A DNA stretch of 64,000 bases from Actinomadura soli (lineage in GTDB: Bacteria; Actinomycetota; Actinomycetes; Streptosporangiales; Streptosporangiaceae): assembly GCF_005889715.1 (NCBI RefSeq), contig NZ_VCKW01000001.1:1-64000 (forward strand). The letters run 5' to 3'. Under the pieces are notes generated by a model. The model was not told where the DNA came from, did not search any database, and saw nothing but the letters and a program-made list of their open reading frames with translations. Numbering within the stretch: the first letter of the stretch is position 1; every line of letters begins with the position of its first letter. Of this stretch, positions 306-9,733 are shown in pieces. Made by a program: the position numbers and the translations under genes.

Positions 306-775
306 GCGCTAACCGCCTGCTGGTTGGTGACGGCTAGCTCGGCCCACACGACCTTGCCCAAGGGCGCGACTGGGTAGAAGCCGAAGCTCACGCTGAGGGC
401 GTCCACCATCATGAGACCACGCCCGTTCTCGCGCCCCAGATTGAACGGCGGGACGTGCGGCTCACTGGGGCAGCGGTCCCACACCTCGATGGCGATCGTG
501 GACTGGAAGCCCAGCAGACGCAGCCGGATGAGCTTGGACGTGGGCAAGTGCTTCCACTGGCCGTCCGCGTACTCCTCGCACACCTGGATGGCGTTAGTCA
601 CGAGCTCTATGCCCACGGTGAGCATGTCGTCGACCACGTGCGGTGCCCGCCACCACTGGAGCGTCCGCTTCATGAAGATGCGCGCGATGGCCGTCGCGTC
701 CGGCGCAGCCACGATGTCGATGGTGTCGCTGAAACGCACCGTGTTTGTTAGGTGCGAGGCGTGTTTGCGGATCAT
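302..775 (-). CDS. GHKL ATP-binding protein, anti-sigma/RsbW-like
   Basis: This 157-residue protein has the Bergerat fold signatures: an N box ELVTN (residues 57-61), a G1-type Asp in EVWDR (Asp100) and a G2 loop GRENGRGLMMV (114-124). Such single-domain HATPase_c proteins in actinomycetes resemble anti-sigma factor kinases (RsbW/SpoIIAB), though most are uncharacterised. ATG 775 was chosen over an in-frame upstream start at 829 because it gives a four-base ATGA overlap with the preceding gene and starts directly before the domain. It is the third gene of a minus-strand operon with two resolvase-like proteins. No partner sigma factor or antagonist lies next to it. Confidence 0.8.
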   Translation of the reverse strand: MIRKHASHLTNTVRFSDTIDIVAAPDATAIARIFMKRTLQWWRAPHVVDDMLTVGIELVTNAIQVCEEYADGQWKHLPTSKLIRLRLLGFQSTIAIEVWDRCPSEPHVPPFNLGRENGRGLMMVDALSVSFGFYPVAPLGKVVWAELAVTNQQAVSA

Positions 776-1101
776 GATTCGTGCATGATGATGACGGTCA
801 CTTTCGTTGTCTCGACAAGCCGTTCCCATATGGCGTCTTGAAGGACACGGCTTTCAGCGAAGTCGGACAGGCCGCGAATAATGACGTACTTCACCGGCGT
901 CCGTTGGACTTCTGCGATCAGCTCGTTCAGACCAGGCTTTAGGCGCGCGTCCCATTCGTAGAAGACCCTGGAGAGCTCGAAGCCGCTTTGGTCGGCATAG
1001 GCTTCCAGCTCACGGCTGCGCCGGTCGGCCTCTTCGGCGGGCATGTCGTTCGGCGCGTACATGTAGCCGTAGGCGAGGGGCTGCAGGTGCAGGGTACTCA
1101 T
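772..1101 (-). CDS. Resolvase-like protein without catalytic serine (paralogue 2)
   Basis: The 109-residue product follows the layout of the N-terminal serine-recombinase (resolvase) domain: AYGYMYAPND at the start, a helix with ELEAYADQSGFELSRVF, and a later strand YVIIRGLSDFAES. In active resolvases the first strand reads Y-x-R-V-S. Here the positions of Arg and the nucleophilic Ser are Tyr15 and Pro17, so strand-exchange chemistry is not expected. No DNA-binding HTH follows. It is paralogous to the gene just upstream (1101-1421), and stop and start share one base (TGATG). A regulatory or binding role is an inference; the catalytic loss is visible. Confidence 0.7.
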   Translation of the reverse strand: MSTLHLQPLAYGYMYAPNDMPAEEADRRSRELEAYADQSGFELSRVFYEWDARLKPGLNELIAEVQRTPVKYVIIRGLSDFAESRVLQDAIWERLVETTKVTVIIMHES

Positions 1102-1421
1102 CAGTGCTGCCCCTGAATCACCCAGAGGCGAGCGCCGGTTTCCTGCTCGATGTGCTGACGCATGGCGTCCTGAAGGCCCGGCAACCTGGCGAAGTGCCAG
1201 AGTGACGGCACGAGAAGGTCTTTGACGTTGTAGCGCTTCAGCGCTTCGATCATGGTGTAAAAGGCTGGCTCCGAGCAGTTGGTGTTCTCGGTGAACACCT
1301 GATCGAGCGTGAAGCCTTCACGTTCGGCGTACACAATGAGCTGACGCCTAATACGTTGCGGCTCCTCCTCTTGATCCTCACCACCCACCACGCGCATGTA
1401 GCCGTAAATGAGGGGTCGCAT
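1101..1421 (-). CDS. Resolvase-like protein without catalytic serine (paralogue 1)
   Basis: This 106-residue protein matches the serine-recombinase N-terminal fold better than its neighbour: IYGYMRVVGGED, RRQLIVYAEREGFTLDQVF, and VKDLLVPSLWHFAR, which corresponds to the V-V-P-S-L-D-H-L-A-R strand of true resolvases. Arg10 of Y-x-R is kept but the nucleophilic Ser is Val12. A strong Shine-Dalgarno (GGAAGGAG, minus strand 1433-1426) precedes ATG 1421. It is the first gene of a coupled operon: this gene, its paralogue, the GHKL ATPase, then a small protein. It is divergent from the HTH regulator at 1645. Confidence 0.72.
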   Translation of the reverse strand: MRPLIYGYMRVVGGEDQEEEPQRIRRQLIVYAEREGFTLDQVFTENTNCSEPAFYTMIEALKRYNVKDLLVPSLWHFARLPGLQDAMRQHIEQETGARLWVIQGQH

Positions 1422-3888: not shown

Positions 3889-5820
3889 ATGAGTGGTGCT
3901 TCTTCACCAGCCAGCGATCAGTCGTGGCTCGACGAGGCAGTTGCAGCCTTAAGGAAGCCGGACAAAGCCTGGTGCGATGAAGACCAGATCAGCTTCGTTG
4001 TAGCTGCGAGAGAGCTGTCGGCATGGCTTCATGACCGGCGTCCCTACGAGGGTCGACACAGGCCGGGTTGGCGGTCAGCCCTTCGTGACTTCTTTCAAGC
4101 CGCGGGGGACCTTGGTCCCGAGGCAACAAGGAGCCTCAGTGGCGAGCTGCTGCAATGTCGATCTATGGCACAGGATATACAGTCAAACCTGGCTACGCTC
4201 TCAGCGGAAAACTTCAAGGCGTGGCTGGCTAGTCAAAGCAATGCATATCGAGCAGCTTTTCTGGCTTTGATCGGTCGATTTAGTGATCCGGATGTGCGAC
4301 TCGCGGCATGGAACGATGTTCTTGCCGGGTATCGTACGTCGGTCGTTTCTCACCAAGAGTTGGCGAAGCGCCGCGACTTGTTCCTGACAGTTGTCCGCGC
4401 GGCGAACCTAAGCGCGGACCGAATAGCTAGCAATCTTCGCGGCCTGCTCTCGAACAATGCCTTTGAAATCTTTGCAACCAAGCATGCACTTGGAGACGCT
4501 GATGCCTCCCGGTCAGATGCCTATCCTCGCCCGAATAAGTCGGCGAACCTTGGCGAGAGTGAGCGCCTGTCTCTCTGTGAGCGCCTTCTAACACAGTCGC
4601 CGCAGCGAGCTCATTACGTGGTGTGGGTGGTGTTCCAGCACGCATCCATGACGCGGGTGGTGCAGACGGTTGGGCCAATTACTTATTATGATGCCGAATT
4701 GATCAAGTCTCTTTTGCAAGCTGAAGAAGATGTGCTGGAGCGGCTCCCGGAAGAACTGAGAGATAGGGAATCGCTTTTCCAGCCATCGCAGCTGCCCGAG
4801 GAGCGCGATACCGTACTGGCTCGTGTCGACCTGGGCATGAGCTCGTTTGCCGATCCCGTACTTGCGGCGCGCGAACAAGCTGACGCCGTTGTCGCACTAG
4901 CTGGCTTCCGCTTTGGCAGGCCAAGGTGGCGGATTCTCCGGGGTTACCTGCTTGCAGTGGATGGACGCATCAGGGGTGTGGGTGCGTTTATGCCGCTTCG
5001 CGACCCTGGCTCTTTGCCGGTATCTGCATCTTCTGACCCCATGAGTGATCTTCTTCAGATGGTGGAAGCTGACCTGGCGCCACATCTTCCGGTGGATAAC
5101 CTCGAACTGATCGAGCTTATTGAAGCGCTACACACTTGGCAGAAGACGGATCGGGAGGAGCCGCTCTCCTCGATAATCTTGCATGTGCGCGCCTTGGAGC
5201 TTATCGCCGCCCGTGTTACCCACGGGGCCTGGTACGAGTTCCTCGATGGCTACCTCTGTTCCTCGTGGGTGCGTGACAAGATATGGGACATGATCCACTC
5301 GGCCGCGTTTGATGCCGCCTACGGACATATTGAGGGGTTGTCGTTAGCGCAAGAGCAAGAAAGGAGGAGCCTTCAACTAGCTCTGTTTAAGAGTACGGGC
5401 TACGGCCACGAGATAGATCTTTCCAGGGCGTACGAAGCCCTCCCAAGGCTTGTTAGCATGCATCCGCCGCAGAGCGAAAGCGGGCGCGAGCTGCGGCATG
5501 TGATGAGCCTGCTGTCGTCACCAGCGAGCATATTGACCGTGCGTGACGATTTGCTTGAGCGGTGGGACATCGCGAGAGCGCGCCTGCAGCGAATCCGCAA
5601 CGCGCTGGCGCATGGTGGCCCCGTAGACGTCGACGGTGCTAAGACAGTCCATGGATTCGCGCGTCAGTTGGCAGCATGGAGTCTCAGCCGAAGCCTGGAA
5701 GGCATCTTGAAGGGCAACGGTGTAGTTGACGAGCATGATCGCTGTCGGGACGAGGCTAATTTGTGGTTCGCAGCCGTTCCGAGTGCCGCTGACGCCAAGA
5801 GTGCGATCTTTTCAAGGTAG
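3889..5820 (+). CDS. Large protein with C-terminal HEPN-like RNALAH motif
   Basis: A 643-residue protein of no family I can name. It appears soluble and largely helical. Near the C-terminus, LERWDIARARLQRIRNALAH ends in R570-N-A-L-A-H575, and the next helix is FARQLAAWSLSRSLEGIL. R-N-x3-H followed by such a helix is the active-site pattern of HEPN RNases, which occur in toxins and abortive-infection proteins such as the ApeA-type families. The first 500 residues could be the sensor part. GC content is visibly lower than in the flanking chromosome, which suggests transfer. It is convergent, 39 bp apart, with the unknown gene on the minus strand. Confidence 0.65.
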   Translation: MSGASSPASDQSWLDEAVAALRKPDKAWCDEDQISFVVAARELSAWLHDRRPYEGRHRPGWRSALRDFFQAAGDLGPEATRSLSGELLQCRSMAQDIQSNLATLSAENFKAWLASQSNAYRAAFLALIGRFSDPDVRLAAWNDVLAGYRTSVVSHQELAKRRDLFLTVVRAANLSADRIASNLRGLLSNNAFEIFATKHALGDADASRSDAYPRPNKSANLGESERLSLCERLLTQSPQRAHYVVWVVFQHASMTRVVQTVGPITYYDAELIKSLLQAEEDVLERLPEELRDRESLFQPSQLPEERDTVLARVDLGMSSFADPVLAAREQADAVVALAGFRFGRPRWRILRGYLLAVDGRIRGVGAFMPLRDPGSLPVSASSDPMSDLLQMVEADLAPHLPVDNLELIELIEALHTWQKTDREEPLSSIILHVRALELIAARVTHGAWYEFLDGYLCSSWVRDKIWDMIHSAAFDAAYGHIEGLSLAQEQERRSLQLALFKSTGYGHEIDLSRAYEALPRLVSMHPPQSESGRELRHVMSLLSSPASILTVRDDLLERWDIARARLQRIRNALAHGGPVDVDGAKTVHGFARQLAAWSLSRSLEGILKGNGVVDEHDRCRDEANLWFAAVPSAADAKSAIFSR

Positions 5821-5859
5821 AAGTGTGCACGTCTGGTCCGAGTGAGGGGCGTTTGTGAA

Positions 5860-6477
5860 TTAAGCGAATGCGGACTCGCTATAGACGACACCATTCTTGG
5901 CGTACTCTACCTCAGTAAAGTACGCCTCTTCGCCGAAGCTGTCGATAAACGGGGTCTCGGTCACATGTCGACGAACCTCGAAGCCGTGCTCTTCAAACTC
6001 TCTGTCATCAGTTGCAAACATTGGCCAATCCGCTAACACGCGTAACTCCCCGCGCTCAAACTCGGCCGTGACGATGTATCGGGCTGCCGTTAGACACCAG
6101 GTTCCTTCTAGCAGGCGGCTGTAGACATGAAACTCGATACGCGGACCTTGCTCATGGTCAAACGACGTTGACCTGCCTAACACTTTGGAGAATAATTGTC
6201 CCTTGTTGCGGCATGAGGCCATATAGGAGGTGGCTCCATGTTGGATGAAGAACATTGAGTCGCTGCCCAGGTATGTAATCGAGAGATAGGCTTTGCGTAC
6301 AGCTTCCTGGTAGGATTCCTTGTCCCGGCTTGGCCAGTCCTTCAATTCTTTTCCTGTGGAAGCATTTGAAATCCCAAGCAAGCTCGCCATCGCGCCGTTC
6401 TTCATAATCCCCTCAACGGCACCCAGGGCATCTACAGTAATTTGAAAGGTCTCATTCTGTTGCTTCGCCTTAAACAT
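5860..6477 (-). CDS. Hypothetical 205-aa protein of the low-GC island
   Basis: No family recognised. The protein begins with Gln/Asn-rich MFKAKQQNETFQ, has LSITYLGSDSMFFIQHG and later strands rich in aromatic residues (IEFHVYSRLLEGTWCLTAARYIV), and looks like a compact alpha/beta protein without membrane segments. Codon use is A+T-richer than the backbone and similar to both neighbours, so the three genes probably arrived together. There is no Shine-Dalgarno; a TATTCT hexamer lies 6 nt upstream of the ATG. It lies between the HEPN-like gene and the nuclease gene and may be a cofactor or immunity partner, which is inference only. Confidence 0.6.
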   Translation of the reverse strand: MFKAKQQNETFQITVDALGAVEGIMKNGAMASLLGISNASTGKELKDWPSRDKESYQEAVRKAYLSITYLGSDSMFFIQHGATSYMASCRNKGQLFSKVLGRSTSFDHEQGPRIEFHVYSRLLEGTWCLTAARYIVTAEFERGELRVLADWPMFATDDREFEEHGFEVRRHVTETPFIDSFGEEAYFTEVEYAKNGVVYSESAFA

Positions 6478-6483
6478 GCTATT

Positions 6484-6489
6484 AGAATA
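6484..6489 (-). promoter_or_regulatory. -10 element TATTCT of the 205-aa gene, leaderless
   Basis: On the minus strand TATTCT is followed by AATAGC and then ATG at 6477. This repeats the -10 plus 6 nt arrangement of the gene at 3889 and lacks any ribosome-binding sequence. The surrounding 6478-6560 is the most A+T-rich part of the window. Confidence 0.4.
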
Positions 6490-6682
6490 TCATTGATACC
6501 GCAATAATAAAATAGTTTCGCAGTCTGCCGTAGAATGGCGAGCGAGTGGCTTCAATCGCTAATCTACTGTGAAATGTCGGCCGATTTCTGTATCGCATCT
6601 GCCGCCGCGCCCTAGAGGCAGCTCCGAATGAAGGTGTCGTCAACGCCTAGTGTTGCCCAATCCGGCCCAAGGACCAAGGATA

Positions 6683-8518
6683 CTAACGCTTGATTTTGTA
6701 GACCTGTACACCGTTGCGAACCTGGTCTTTGGTAAGCGTGGTTTTAGTGCCTACGTAATCACCTGCACTCGCTGTCCCGACGGGTTGGTTGTCGAGCTGC
6801 AGCGAAGTGACGTCTTCCTCGATAAAGTCCACCGGCAGTTCGTAGGCGACTCGGTCACCCACAGCAAGGGGCTGCGACAATCGTAGTCCTACTACGGAAG
6901 CCTTTGGCCAGTGGCCATCAATGTGCCCGATCGGCTCGTAGTGTGCGGGAACGGGGTGGACGCGGCCTGACGTCACGAACAGGGGAGCGATATCCTCGTG
7001 GCGCCAGCTATGCATGATGAAATTTCGCGTGAGGCGGAACAGGTCCCATGCAGTCAGCAAGGACAAGTCCTGCTCTTCAGCGTTGGTGACGACGTCCTCC
7101 TGAAAGACGTGTTCGTGCTCGCGGTCGAGGCCTGGCAGATGTCGCTGATGATTGACGATCGCCATACCGCGGATGTTGTGTGTTCGCCATTCGCGCATGC
7201 GAGGCGCGATGTACTTGGCGACTTGCAGTGAGCTGGCTTCTTTGGGTGTGCCGGCTATTCCCTTGATCTCAACCAGCACGGGCACGGCTGCGTCCATGAT
7301 GCGTACGTCTTCGCGTCGCGGACCGGTTGCACCGGACGCCTCAGCCTCGGCGTCTACATCACGCACATCTGTGAAGCCGAGCGTCGTCAGTGCTTGAATA
7401 ACAGCCTTGACCAGGTTGTCGCCGGTGGCGGTGATGAGCTCGTGCAGGAAACCATACTGGTCGCGGCTGGCTGCGATTTGCTCTTCGAGTCCGCGGATGC
7501 GGAGGCGGGCAGCCTCTTCAATCCTGGTGATCTCGTCCTTGACTGTCATGATCTGAGGCAGCTCGTATGCGGGGCGCTGCACCCAGAAGCTTCGCTCAGC
7601 GTGAGGAAAGAGGCGCGGTACGAGCGTGGGAAGGACGACTTCGACCAGTTCGACTACCAGGTCAGCTCGTCGTTTGATTTGGGGAAGTATGAAGATTAGC
7701 CCGGATTTGCCTTCTTCCTGGGCGGGGTAGAGGAGTCCGCCTACCGACGCTCCATACTTGTTTGTAGCCAGTGTCACCCATTTATAATCGTTGTTCCACG
7801 GCGACGGTTCGACTATGCATTCGAAGCGACCGGTCTCCAGGAAGCTGCTGATTCCGATCTCGTTGCAGGCGCTGGTAGGTTGGATCTCTCGTCCACTGTC
7901 GTTCTTGATCCGCAATTTGGAAGTTTCTGTTAGCAAGCTCCAGTTGCTGAGGCCACGTAGTTCACGATTGCCAAGAGGCTCTCTTAGTTCGCCAAATGAA
8001 TTCTTTTCGCTAATGAAGCACCCCGGTTCGAAACGCGCGCCAGCGAATACAATAAAGATGCCTCCATGCTCATGGATGCGGTTCATGGCATCGGACGTGC
8101 GTTCCATATTGATTGGTCGCGGGTCAATGACGCCCGTTACTGTAGGAGTCCATATGGCTGGGACGCCCTGAGGCGGCTGTTCGAATGAGTCTTCGGTAGC
8201 TCTCTTCAGTGCTGGACCGGTGAGGTCTACGATGACAATTTCTTGCTCCGTGTAATCATCGGGTAGGTCATCACTCATTGCTAGTGGCAAGTAGCTGCTA
8301 CTTTTGGGCACCGAAACGGGCTGGCCGAAGGAGCTTGCGGATGTCGCATACCCGCGCTGCTTAAGCACCGAGGCAACGTCCGGGCTGTCGATGACGAGGA
8401 TCTTGGGGTGCGGGTATTTTGGTGCAAAATCGTCCTGTTTGTCGGAATGTGTGGATCGTGTCGCAATCGTGTTAGAGGTGTCGGCGGAGGTCACGGGCTG
8501 GGCTCGGCGCTTCCACAT
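6683..8518 (-). CDS. PD-(D/E)xK nuclease fused to a beta-barrel-like domain
   Basis: From ATG 8518 the product has 611 residues. The N-terminal third resembles an alpha/beta sensor (KILVIDSPDV, EIVIVDLTGP, GGIFIVFAGARFEPG). A coiled coil (RIEEAARLRIRGLEEQIAAS) precedes a Mrr/restriction-like core with LTTLGFTDVRD, REDVRIMD (Asp near 402) and PVLVEIKG (E-x-K near 416-418), fitting PD-(D/E)xK nucleases. The last 80 residues, with LAVGDRVAYELPVDFIEEDV and ending in GVQVYKIKR, resemble the barrel of translation factors or U32-type C-termini. The open frame continues upstream to 8833, but that part is a remnant of a recombinase HTH, so the shorter start was chosen. The gene is low in GC. Confidence 0.65.
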   Translation of the reverse strand: MWKRRAQPVTSADTSNTIATRSTHSDKQDDFAPKYPHPKILVIDSPDVASVLKQRGYATSASSFGQPVSVPKSSSYLPLAMSDDLPDDYTEQEIVIVDLTGPALKRATEDSFEQPPQGVPAIWTPTVTGVIDPRPINMERTSDAMNRIHEHGGIFIVFAGARFEPGCFISEKNSFGELREPLGNRELRGLSNWSLLTETSKLRIKNDSGREIQPTSACNEIGISSFLETGRFECIVEPSPWNNDYKWVTLATNKYGASVGGLLYPAQEEGKSGLIFILPQIKRRADLVVELVEVVLPTLVPRLFPHAERSFWVQRPAYELPQIMTVKDEITRIEEAARLRIRGLEEQIAASRDQYGFLHELITATGDNLVKAVIQALTTLGFTDVRDVDAEAEASGATGPRREDVRIMDAAVPVLVEIKGIAGTPKEASSLQVAKYIAPRMREWRTHNIRGMAIVNHQRHLPGLDREHEHVFQEDVVTNAEEQDLSLLTAWDLFRLTRNFIMHSWRHEDIAPLFVTSGRVHPVPAHYEPIGHIDGHWPKASVVGLRLSQPLAVGDRVAYELPVDFIEEDVTSLQLDNQPVGTASAGDYVGTKTTLTKDQVRNGVQVYKIKR

Positions 8519-8575
8519 GGGTAAGAAGGTAAACCCTCGGCACGACACTCGACATCTGGATTCAATGGTCTGCGC

Positions 8576-8730
8576 CTGCAGCCCGCGCGGCCTCGCCTGC
8601 ACCCCTCGTTCGATCAGGCGGAGCCGCGTGGTGTCGGCACTTACCTCCAGCCGCTTACCGATGCGCGCAAGCGACCAACCCTCCTCGTGCAGGCGTGAGG
8701 GCTGCTCGACCTGGTTGGGGGGCATGACAC
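8576..8730 (-). pseudogene. Remnant of a duplicated recombinase-type HTH gene
   Basis: The segment encodes HEEGWSLARIGKRLEVSADT and RLRLIERGVQARPRG. This closely matches the end of the intact neighbour at 8840-9289 (YQEGWSLARIGKRMSVDGQT, RSRLVERGVRMRD). Only the last HTH is present. It is in frame with the nuclease gene downstream, giving a chance fusion to the upstream open frame. It indicates a tandem duplication or unequal recombination in which the second copy decayed. Confidence 0.6.
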
Positions 8731-8839
8731 GCCGATGGGAGCCAGTTCCACGTTCATGATCCCGCTCTACGCTGGGCGCGGCAGGCGTACCGGAACTTCG
8801 GGACTGGATGCGAAGGACTCCGACAAGCGGCAACGTGCG

Positions 8840-9289
8840 TCACGGCCGCTCCCTCCCATGCGTATCCCTCATCCTCACCCCACGCTCCACCAGTCGGCTC
8901 CGCACCGTCTGGCCATCAACGCTCATGCGCTTGCCGATCCGTGCGAGTGACCAGCCTTCTTGGTACAGCTTCACCGCCTCGTCGATCTGCTCAGGGCTCA
9001 TCCCACCCATACGCATCTTCACGCCATGACGGCGCAGGATCTTGCTTACCGTTACCCGGTGGATGTGGAAGCGACGAGCGATCTGGTACACCGAAGCGCC
9101 CGCTCGGTAGGCGGCCACTACTTCTTGGGCTTCTTGCTCTTTGAGCTGCTTCGCACGACCGGGGAGGTTTCGTGCGGGCTTCGTGGGTACCGGCGCGGTG
9201 GGCGATGGCAGCTTGCGTAGGAGCGTCTCAAGGGCCTTGGCCTGTGTACCGGGGTTGTACAGAGGTGGCGGGAGGCCCACCCAGGTCAC
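8840..9289 (-). CDS. Double-HTH protein of the serine-recombinase C-terminal type
   Basis: The product (149 aa from GTG 9289) carries two HTH units. The first is QEVVAAYRAGASVYQIARRF with HIHRVTVSKILRRHGV, a Hin/resolvase HTH_7-type. The second is DEAVKLYQEGWSLARIGKRM with RSRLVERGVRMRD. This is the DNA-binding tail of actinobacterial resolvases and invertases. No catalytic domain (Y-x-R-V-S) is found in frame upstream, so it is either a stand-alone DNA-binding protein or a truncated recombinase. A strong hairpin abuts the proposed start, which leaves the start uncertain. Confidence 0.55.
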   Translation of the reverse strand: MTWVGLPPPLYNPGTQAKALETLLRKLPSPTAPVPTKPARNLPGRAKQLKEQEAQEVVAAYRAGASVYQIARRFHIHRVTVSKILRRHGVKMRMGGMSPEQIDEAVKLYQEGWSLARIGKRMSVDGQTVRSRLVERGVRMRDTHGRERP

Positions 9290-9320
9290 AGGCCGGTTCC
9301 GACCAAGGAACCGGCCTTTT
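9290..9320 (+). terminator. 11-bp stem hairpin with T tract
   Basis: AGGCCGGTTCC (9290-9300), loop GACCAA, GGAACCGGCCT (9307-9317), then T to 9320. Read on the plus strand this is a classical intrinsic terminator. No plus-strand gene precedes it within 1 kb, and on the minus strand it lies just before the HTH gene. It may instead be a recombination or attachment-type inverted repeat, or an attenuator. Confidence 0.5.
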
Positions 9321-9733
9321 CGATCTCCGTACGGCCGCGAAGTACAGCAGTAGCCCCCGTAATCAGGGGCCTGCCCATCTGTGCGAGGGTGCTGGGTGGA
9401 CGAGATGAAGCGGCCGGGCCGGAGTCCGGGTTGCCGGAGACAATCTGCAATGGCCACCTGTGTGGGAGGCATGCCTGGCCGCGCTTTATCGACCGAGGAC
9501 GCGGGGAGCGCAACCCCATGGTCCGGGTCGGCGTCGAGGTCGGACCGTGGAGACAGGTCAGGGGGATGTTCTCGCCACACTCAGTGGCACCATCCGGCTG
9601 ATCTGGGGCGGCTCGTGCACCCTGCTCATTCCGGCCGATTCAACCGTCGTCCTCTAGGCTGACGACAGGTCAGGCAGACGCCTCGGGGGCCACCGCCCGC
9701 TCTGGTGCTGCCCGGGCCAAAGGGAGATCGGCG
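9321..9733. other. Intergenic stretch without recognised gene
   Basis: This 413-bp stretch has no frame with recognisable product or ribosome site. A second short inverted repeat, CCCCCGTAATCAGGGG, lies near 9355-9371. The right end supplies the upstream region of the gene at 9734, including GGGAGATC just before its ATG. Confidence 0.4.

Follow-up and report, generated by a model that had tools for sequence, protein, structure and literature searches.

A reading frame on a contig of Actinomadura soli (NZ_VCKW01000001.1) raises the question of what a protein might do that joins a nuclease core to a barrel of the translation-factor type. We analysed the first 64,000 nucleotides of this contig (the window), in which the frame is present at the coordinates of the original prediction and lies on the minus strand; by translation, it starts with an ATG at 8518, ends with a stop at 6683-6685 and encodes a 611-aa protein, here called P0001. 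The sequence strings quoted in that prediction were all found in P0001 (REDVRIMD at residue 402, VEIKG at 416, LAVGDRVAYELPVDF at 551, GDYVGTK at 586 and GVQVYKIKR at 603). Coordinates are collected in Table 1.

Table 1. Features of the P0001 gene and its surroundings (residues of P0001; positions in the window)
Feature	Residues	Positions	Strand	Basis
Low-GC block (0.51-0.58 per gene), probable acquired island		3889..8518	.	GC 0.718 in 10583-64000
Whole P0001 gene		6683..8518	-	Translation; a 55% relative of the same genus has a like leader and identical architecture
Helix-turn-helix remnant, in frame, upstream of the P0001 gene		8519..8833	-	Resembles the 8840-9580 ORF in a 45-column local protein alignment
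ORF with resolvase-type HTH regions (HTH_23, HTH_38, HTH_7, two stretches each)		8840..9580	-	Pfam
Class-I glutamine-amidotransferase/ThuA-fold alpha/beta domain, proposed ligand or trigger sensor	35-305	7604..8416	-	Model and fold comparison
Long helix, probable coiled coil (putative dimerisation)	321-355	7454..7558	-	Secondary structure of the model
PD-(D/E)xK nuclease core	357-522	6953..7450	-	FokI fold match; most conserved part
D404, predicted metal-binding acid, family motif EED	404	7307..7309	-	Identical in 56/56
E417-I-K419, ExK motif	417-419	7262..7270	-	E417 and K419 identical in 56/56
Q432, conserved residue downstream of the ExK motif	432	7223..7225	-	Identical in 56/56
EF-Tu domain-2/U32 C-terminal-type beta barrel	527-611	6686..6940	-	4he5 fold match; profile-profile comparison

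The P0001 gene lies in a probable acquired island

The GC content is 0.568 over the P0001 gene and 0.513 and 0.577 over its two adjoining genes, compared with 0.718 across 10583-64000. The low-GC block, which comprises a 643-aa ORF, a 205-aa ORF and the P0001 gene, is probably an acquired island. Recombinase-type remains were found directly upstream of the P0001 gene and about 2.5 kb past the opposite end of the block, and no tRNA gene was found within the window as a mark of the insertion site. On the upstream side, two mutually similar resolvase-type HTH segments stand side by side (8519-9580, minus strand), one of them in frame upstream of the P0001 gene; this helix-turn-helix remnant is outside the family protein proper. 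On the other side, two neighbouring short ORFs (772-1421, minus strand) are, from their sequences, likely serine recombinase remains: one passed the cut-off of the resolvase N-terminal domain (1.4e-5) and the other gave a weak match (0.012). The 643-aa ORF (3889-5820, plus strand) carries an RNALAH string (Rx4H, HEPN-like) at residue 570, and it had no match in Pfam or PADLOC at E 1.

P0001 is predicted to combine three known folds

A model of full-length P0001 was built on a 56-row family alignment (pLDDT 85.3, pTM 0.57) and compared with the PDB by VIA-align. The modelled protein has three parts: an N-terminal alpha/beta domain, a FokI-type core that follows a long helix, and a C-terminal barrel. 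Given the pTM of 0.57, the mutual arrangement of the domains is left open. When solved chains were searched by sequence, P0001 alone gave no match at E up to 1 and the full family profile none at E 1; the profile of the core alone gave one unrelated chain at E 1.1, and that of the barrel gave four matches, none of them a credible relative, including a chain of translation factor 1A (E 0.59). Credible relatives among solved structures were revealed by fold comparison only. Parts of the model also matched entries of BFVD, where none of the 50 matches listed exceeded a TM of 0.20 of the query.

Conservation is highest in the nuclease part, with a mean pairwise identity of 0.51 among the 56 members versus 0.28 for both the N-terminus and the barrel. 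The invariant columns of the alignment are E91, G209, P279, W312, L369, D389, E403, D404, E417, K419, G420, G423, T424, Q432, K435, V455, N456, R466 and G590; identity in 56/56 at E403, D404, E417, K419, G420, G423, T424, Q432 and K435 is beyond chance. Residues 355-522 of the model matched FokI (2fok) with a Z of 12.0 and an rmsd of 3.1 over 146 residues. The core of P0001 thus shows the PD-(D/E)xK residue pattern in sequence (D404, E417, K419 and Q432) and is modelled with the fold of the FokI cleavage domain. The original prediction had taken D402 and K418 as the catalytic residues; both numbers need correction, as the acid is D404 and the lysine K419, to which E417 is added. Its description of the core as Mrr-like holds at the level of the PD-(D/E)xK superfamily, with the FokI fold match, but not at that of Mrr itself, since the Mrr models of Pfam are absent both from the matches of P0001 (E 1) and from the 21 families weakly matched by the 56 members (E 0.1).

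The core also occurs in sister proteins that have no barrel (L074, L075, L103, L104, L107 and L111), some of which matched in the N-terminal region as well. In the alignment, the D...ExK motif is kept only in L103 and L104, while K is replaced by R in L074 and by E in L107 and L111, and the motif is gone from L075. The sisters suggest that the barrel may be a module added to an older sensor-nuclease body, or else that it was lost in them.

The C-terminal barrel, assigned by the original prediction to the EF-Tu domain 2/U32 type, was borne out by the model, in which residues 527-608 have this fold: they matched the U32 C-terminal domain 4he5 with a Z of 14.0 and an rmsd of 1.4 over 79 residues, and domain 2 of EF-Tu and eEF1A with a Z of about 12 and an rmsd near 2 over 82-84 residues. 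Profile-profile comparison of the family barrel gave E-values of 2e-17 with barrels of HEPN proteins, 1.2e-13 with standalone barrels and 1.3e-12 with U32, all of them favourable as the compared sets had been gathered with the family's own profile; the control, the barrel against the family's own nuclease, gave E 0.57. On fold comparison and the profile-profile matches against this control, we rejected a chance resemblance of the barrel. Neither outcome that would have overturned the original prediction, a model lacking the PD-(D/E)xK fold or one lacking the C-terminal barrel, arose. The family proteins fall short of the Pfam cut-offs for PF03144 and PF16325, and one of the 56 matched PF03144 at E 0.058. 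The net charge of the barrel is near zero rather than positive (mean -0.8 over 56 members), so simple RNA binding gains no support from it.

For the N-terminus, the original prediction of a Rossmann-type domain is loosely compatible with the alpha/beta character that we found, but the specific fold in the model is that of class-I glutamine amidotransferases and ThuA. In the full model, residues 36-303 matched the ThuA-like structure 1t0b (Z 12.4, rmsd 3.4 over 177). The N-terminal part was also modelled alone (pLDDT 88.2, pTM 0.88), and this model matched 8hx9, of the amidotransferase type (Z 12.7, rmsd 3.4 over 175), 1t0b (Z 12.5, rmsd 3.3 over 173) and 5fmr, the IFT52 N-terminal domain (Z 11.3, rmsd 3.6 over 178); the best E-value obtained for it with Foldseek was only 1.8e-3. 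The family has a motif P86...H90-E91, with P86 in 53/56, H at column 90 in 54/56 and E91 in 56/56, P0001 itself having T90. We searched the N-terminal columns for a conserved catalytic cysteine and found none invariant among the 56 members; the columns richest in cysteine were 41 (25/56), 159 (22/56, A159 in P0001) and 59 (15/56). As no cysteine is invariant, the domain is unlikely to be an active amidotransferase, and a role in binding is proposed for it instead. Between this domain and the nuclease, the coiled coil that had been predicted appears in the model as a long helix ahead of the core, the coiled coil itself being probable. The combination of these three folds is new to the libraries and literature searched, and each fold is already known.

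The P0001 family is rare and patchy

We then looked at how far proteins of this kind are spread. A first kinship search matched 2/59 genomes, the window's own and one other (G005, 55% identity), and a scan of genome contigs with the single P0001 sequence gave nothing. Protein searches gave seven plasmid records and one phage record. When a 9-row alignment was used, 41 loci in the genome collection and 20 in the viral collection were found (61 in all), of which 56 have an unbroken full-length match. The copies at L035 and L057 are interrupted by a stop, and those at L056 and L062 are in pieces. Two family copies (L024 and L044) stand on a single Trichocoleus contig (NZ_JACJPF010000088.1), one of them cut by the contig edge. 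The 56-row alignment consists of P0001 and 55 of the 56 full-length loci; the broken or partial L035, L044, L056, L057 and L062 were left out, as were L061, L001-L010 and the loci from the searches of genome samples.

The titles of the genome records that carry members name Pseudomonas, Flavobacterium, Anabaena and Blautia, besides many more, and we take these to span several phyla. Full-length copies were found in 2/396 genomes of the phylum sample and 2/65 of the genus sample, the window's own genome being counted in both. In three other samples, only the centre genome carried one (1/299, 1/247 and 1/194), and the barrel, used as the query on a sample of 139 genomes, gave one additional copy beyond the centre (L170). 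The family is therefore rare and patchy among the sampled genomes. Two gene queries against E. coli complete genomes gave no similar DNA.

Pfam, PADLOC and NCBIfam gave no match to P0001 at E up to 1, nor did PHROGs at 0.001. Among the 56 members, 55 were without a match in PADLOC-DB 2.0.0 at E 0.1 and one matched mad4 weakly (E 0.0018); in Pfam at E 0.1, 21 families were each matched by a single member (best E 0.0041); and two members matched one unnamed PHROGs family (3.8e-4). The NCBIfam scan, which covered P0001 and one other member, gave no match. We found no publication describing the family in the literature searched, where most subscription journals were outside coverage. The original prediction had regarded the architecture as unusual. 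The combination was indeed found, but P0001 is not a lone oddity: it is one of a scattered family, and HEPN-type proteins carry the barrel too.

The barrel is found on other proteins

In the phylum sample of the window, the 9-row-alignment search matched 44/396 genomes, about 40 of them by the barrel alone. Twenty-six barrel-only loci were retrieved (L076-L101), which are standalone ORFs of 85-126 aa; six were scanned with Pfam, and the GTP_EFTU_D2 cut-off (PF03144) was passed by three (L076, L080 and L090) and missed by three. One standalone barrel, L077, is preceded by an ORF that we take to be RtcB-like. The standalone barrels, present in about 40 of the 396 genomes, offer the smallest starting point for structural and binding studies.

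The phylum samples of other member genomes gave a varied picture. In that of the L012 genome, 12 barrel-matched ORFs were scanned, comprising 10 of U32, one of HEPN (L109) and one of neither. The sample of the L013 genome gave 13 HEPN proteins and a short ORF (L124) without a match, while in that of the L018 genome the centre alone matched (1/249). When 184 genomes of a single phylum were searched with the barrel, 11 beyond the centre gave matched ORFs of 353-364 aa and two gave short ones only. Altogether, 14 of the 23 barrel-matched ORFs scanned with Pfam are of the HEPN type, and one matched the UPF0176/rhodanese families. The HEPN proteins (MAE_28990/RiboL-PSP; L122, L123, L109, L127-L135, L137 and L138) are about 353-383 aa long with a C-terminal barrel of the EF-Tu/U32 type, and Rx4H was present in 6/6 of those looked at. 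The barrel profile also found L158, presumably a LepA-like GTPase. A HEPN survey from 2013 (PMC3710099) mentions a MAE_18760 HEPN fused to a 'novel beta rich domain', which might or might not correspond to the P0001-type barrel.

Relatives lie in prophages, phage-plasmids and plasmids

To place the family genes in their surroundings, we compared the neighbourhoods of the loci. In four of the 20 viral-contig loci, which are P2-like prophages (L057, L060, L068 and L071), the gene lies between the portal gene gpQ and the replication gene gpA. PHROGs supported the portal and terminase in L068 and gpA in L068 and L071. Extra ORFs lie inside the interval in L071 and in L057, the latter with a family copy interrupted by a stop. 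According to the accessible part of PMC9122126, the gpA-gpQ locus, on the cos side, holds old/tin and other tested anti-phage genes, and about a fourth of P2-like phages have a partition system there. Given these partition systems, the hotspot position is no proof of defence.

A phage-repressor cluster was found within about 3.5 kb in seven loci (L010, L018, L030, L052, L053, L056 and L062), confirmed by PHROGs in L030; in L018 and L030, the repressor is tail to tail with the family gene. In the P1-like phage-plasmids L007 and L070, the gene adjoins a lysozyme gene. Plasmid copies lie at varied sites: three adjoin NadS/RelE-type or RelE genes, and a Klebsiella plasmid copy adjoins pifC and a P-loop NTPase. 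Among the 30 largest neighbour clusters, none covers more than 7/71 loci, indicating that no obligate partner gene is seen; an obligate two-gene system is unsupported on the same count. Beyond the phage and plasmid backbone, these clusters presumably include NadS/RelE-type, methyltransferase-like, UmuC-like and glutathione-transferase-like genes, at 3-5 loci each.

We also compared PADLOC matches at 1e-10 near and far from the chromosomal copies. The 146 nearest ORFs (40 of 41 loci, L044 being left out) matched 139 models, and 105 distant ORFs matched five, after three of 108 (two from L041, one from L051) that were also in the near set had been dropped; the near set is therefore not made up of close neighbours alone. 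Each near-set model was matched by at most three proteins, and 24 of the 25 models listed, out of 139, are methyltransferase models with two proteins apiece. With so few proteins per model, neighbour-defence enrichment was set aside as too weak to count as support.

P0001 is proposed to be a mobile defence nuclease

The model and the sequences together provide three domains with a helix linker, invariant PD-(D/E)xK residues, a barrel, and relatives on prophages, phage-plasmids and plasmids. On this basis, we consider it somewhat probable that P0001 is an anti-phage (or anti-element) nuclease encoded by one gene that moves horizontally. A role in defence is probable because several relatives lie on plasmids and in prophages at spots where anti-virus genes gather. 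In the mechanism that we propose, the helix would pair two proteins as a coiled-coil dimer, given that double-strand cutting would need paired active sites. The amidotransferase-like domain, which has no conserved cysteine, would bind the trigger, and the barrel may dock on RNA associated with translation, or on a partner from the host or the phage, and either license or position the nuclease. The triggered nuclease would cut nucleic acid, with DNA a likelier substrate than RNA in view of the fold of the core, and cleavage might halt the incoming phage directly or through cell death.

More tentatively, and with a rather low expectation that it is right, we suggest that the barrel could be an aiming module common to bacterial immunity, through which unrelated effectors (PD-(D/E)xK here, and HEPN in proteins of two further phylum samples) would be brought to their goal during infection, be it tRNA, the ribosome or a translation factor. 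Translation would then be the sensor or the target, and the P0001 family would be a branch that attacks the translation apparatus or is switched on by it.

The same barrel could lead to a different substrate, in that it might dock on tRNA or the ribosome while the core cuts RNA, which would make P0001 a translation-stopping abortive-infection RNase like the barrel-bearing HEPN proteins. The HEPN barrel is the closest profile match (E 2e-17), and the other carriers are, by name, translation or RNA-cutting families (U32, the HEPN type and L158, which we assume to be LepA-like). However, most known PD-(D/E)xK cores are DNA-cutting, the listed fold match FokI is a DNA endonuclease, the barrel is not basic, and the core occurs without it in the sister proteins. 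We consider this RNA-targeting reading unlikely.

No less unlikely, in our view, is a restriction-like enzyme in which the barrel or the N-terminal domain would read DNA or its modification with no link to translation. The FokI-type cleavage fold and the occurrence as a single gene on mobile elements would suit such an enzyme, as would a cluster that we take to be DNA-methyltransferase-like, found within about 3.5 kb in 4/71 loci (L049, L057, L060 and L068). However, three of these four are P2-like prophages, and the other loci have none among the 30 largest clusters. Moreover, fold comparison listed nothing but translation factors and U32 for the barrel, which by profile matched the barrels of HEPN proteins, standalone barrels and those of U32.

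Less likely still is a plasmid or prophage maintenance or stress gene (e.g. for killing competing elements or controlling induction) rather than anti-phage defence, which would agree with the copies on plasmids and near prophage repressors and with NadS-type regulators near five loci (L004, L005, L006, L037 and L048), four of them also near RelE-type toxins, but the NadS loci are 5/71, four share much of one plasmid neighbourhood, and no antitoxin-like gene was seen across the remaining loci among the 30 largest clusters.

If P0001 is indeed a mobile single-gene defence nuclease, it would be one not clearly listed in Pfam, PADLOC and PHROGs (56 members scanned) or NCBIfam (two). Two unrelated effector types, PD-(D/E)xK and HEPN, would be tied to one translation-factor barrel, and the loose idea that defence enzymes dock on the translation machinery would become directly testable through one 85-residue domain.

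Comparison with known systems

The family has its insertion site in P2-like prophages in common with old/tin and the other gpA-gpQ hotspot genes; among the hotspot genes named in the accessible part of PMC9122126, none has an architecture of the P0001 type. As far as the available text of PMC11090510 goes, CoCoNuT systems have coiled coils together with nucleases and, in CnuH, an OB fold like that of EF-Tu domain II, but they are multi-gene and built on a McrB-like GTPase, whereas P0001 has no GTPase domain in Pfam. With the FokI cleavage domain and the PD-(D/E)xK superfamily, the P0001 family has the core fold and the invariant acid and ExK residues in common; in FokI and type IIS restriction enzymes, DNA-recognition domains precede the cleavage domain, and for the N-terminus of P0001 the fold matches listed are of the amidotransferase/ThuA kind. 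The fold of the barrel is common to the U32 C-terminal domain (PF16325; 4he5/4he6) and to domain 2 of EF-Tu, eEF1A and LepA (PF03144), but in P0001 it is fused behind a nuclease, and the family proteins lie below the Pfam cut-offs. Finally, while their effector is HEPN and their length of about 355-385 aa leaves no room for an amidotransferase-like domain, the HEPN_MAE_28990 and RiboL-PSP-HEPN proteins (L122, L123, L109 and others) carry a C-terminal barrel as P0001 does.
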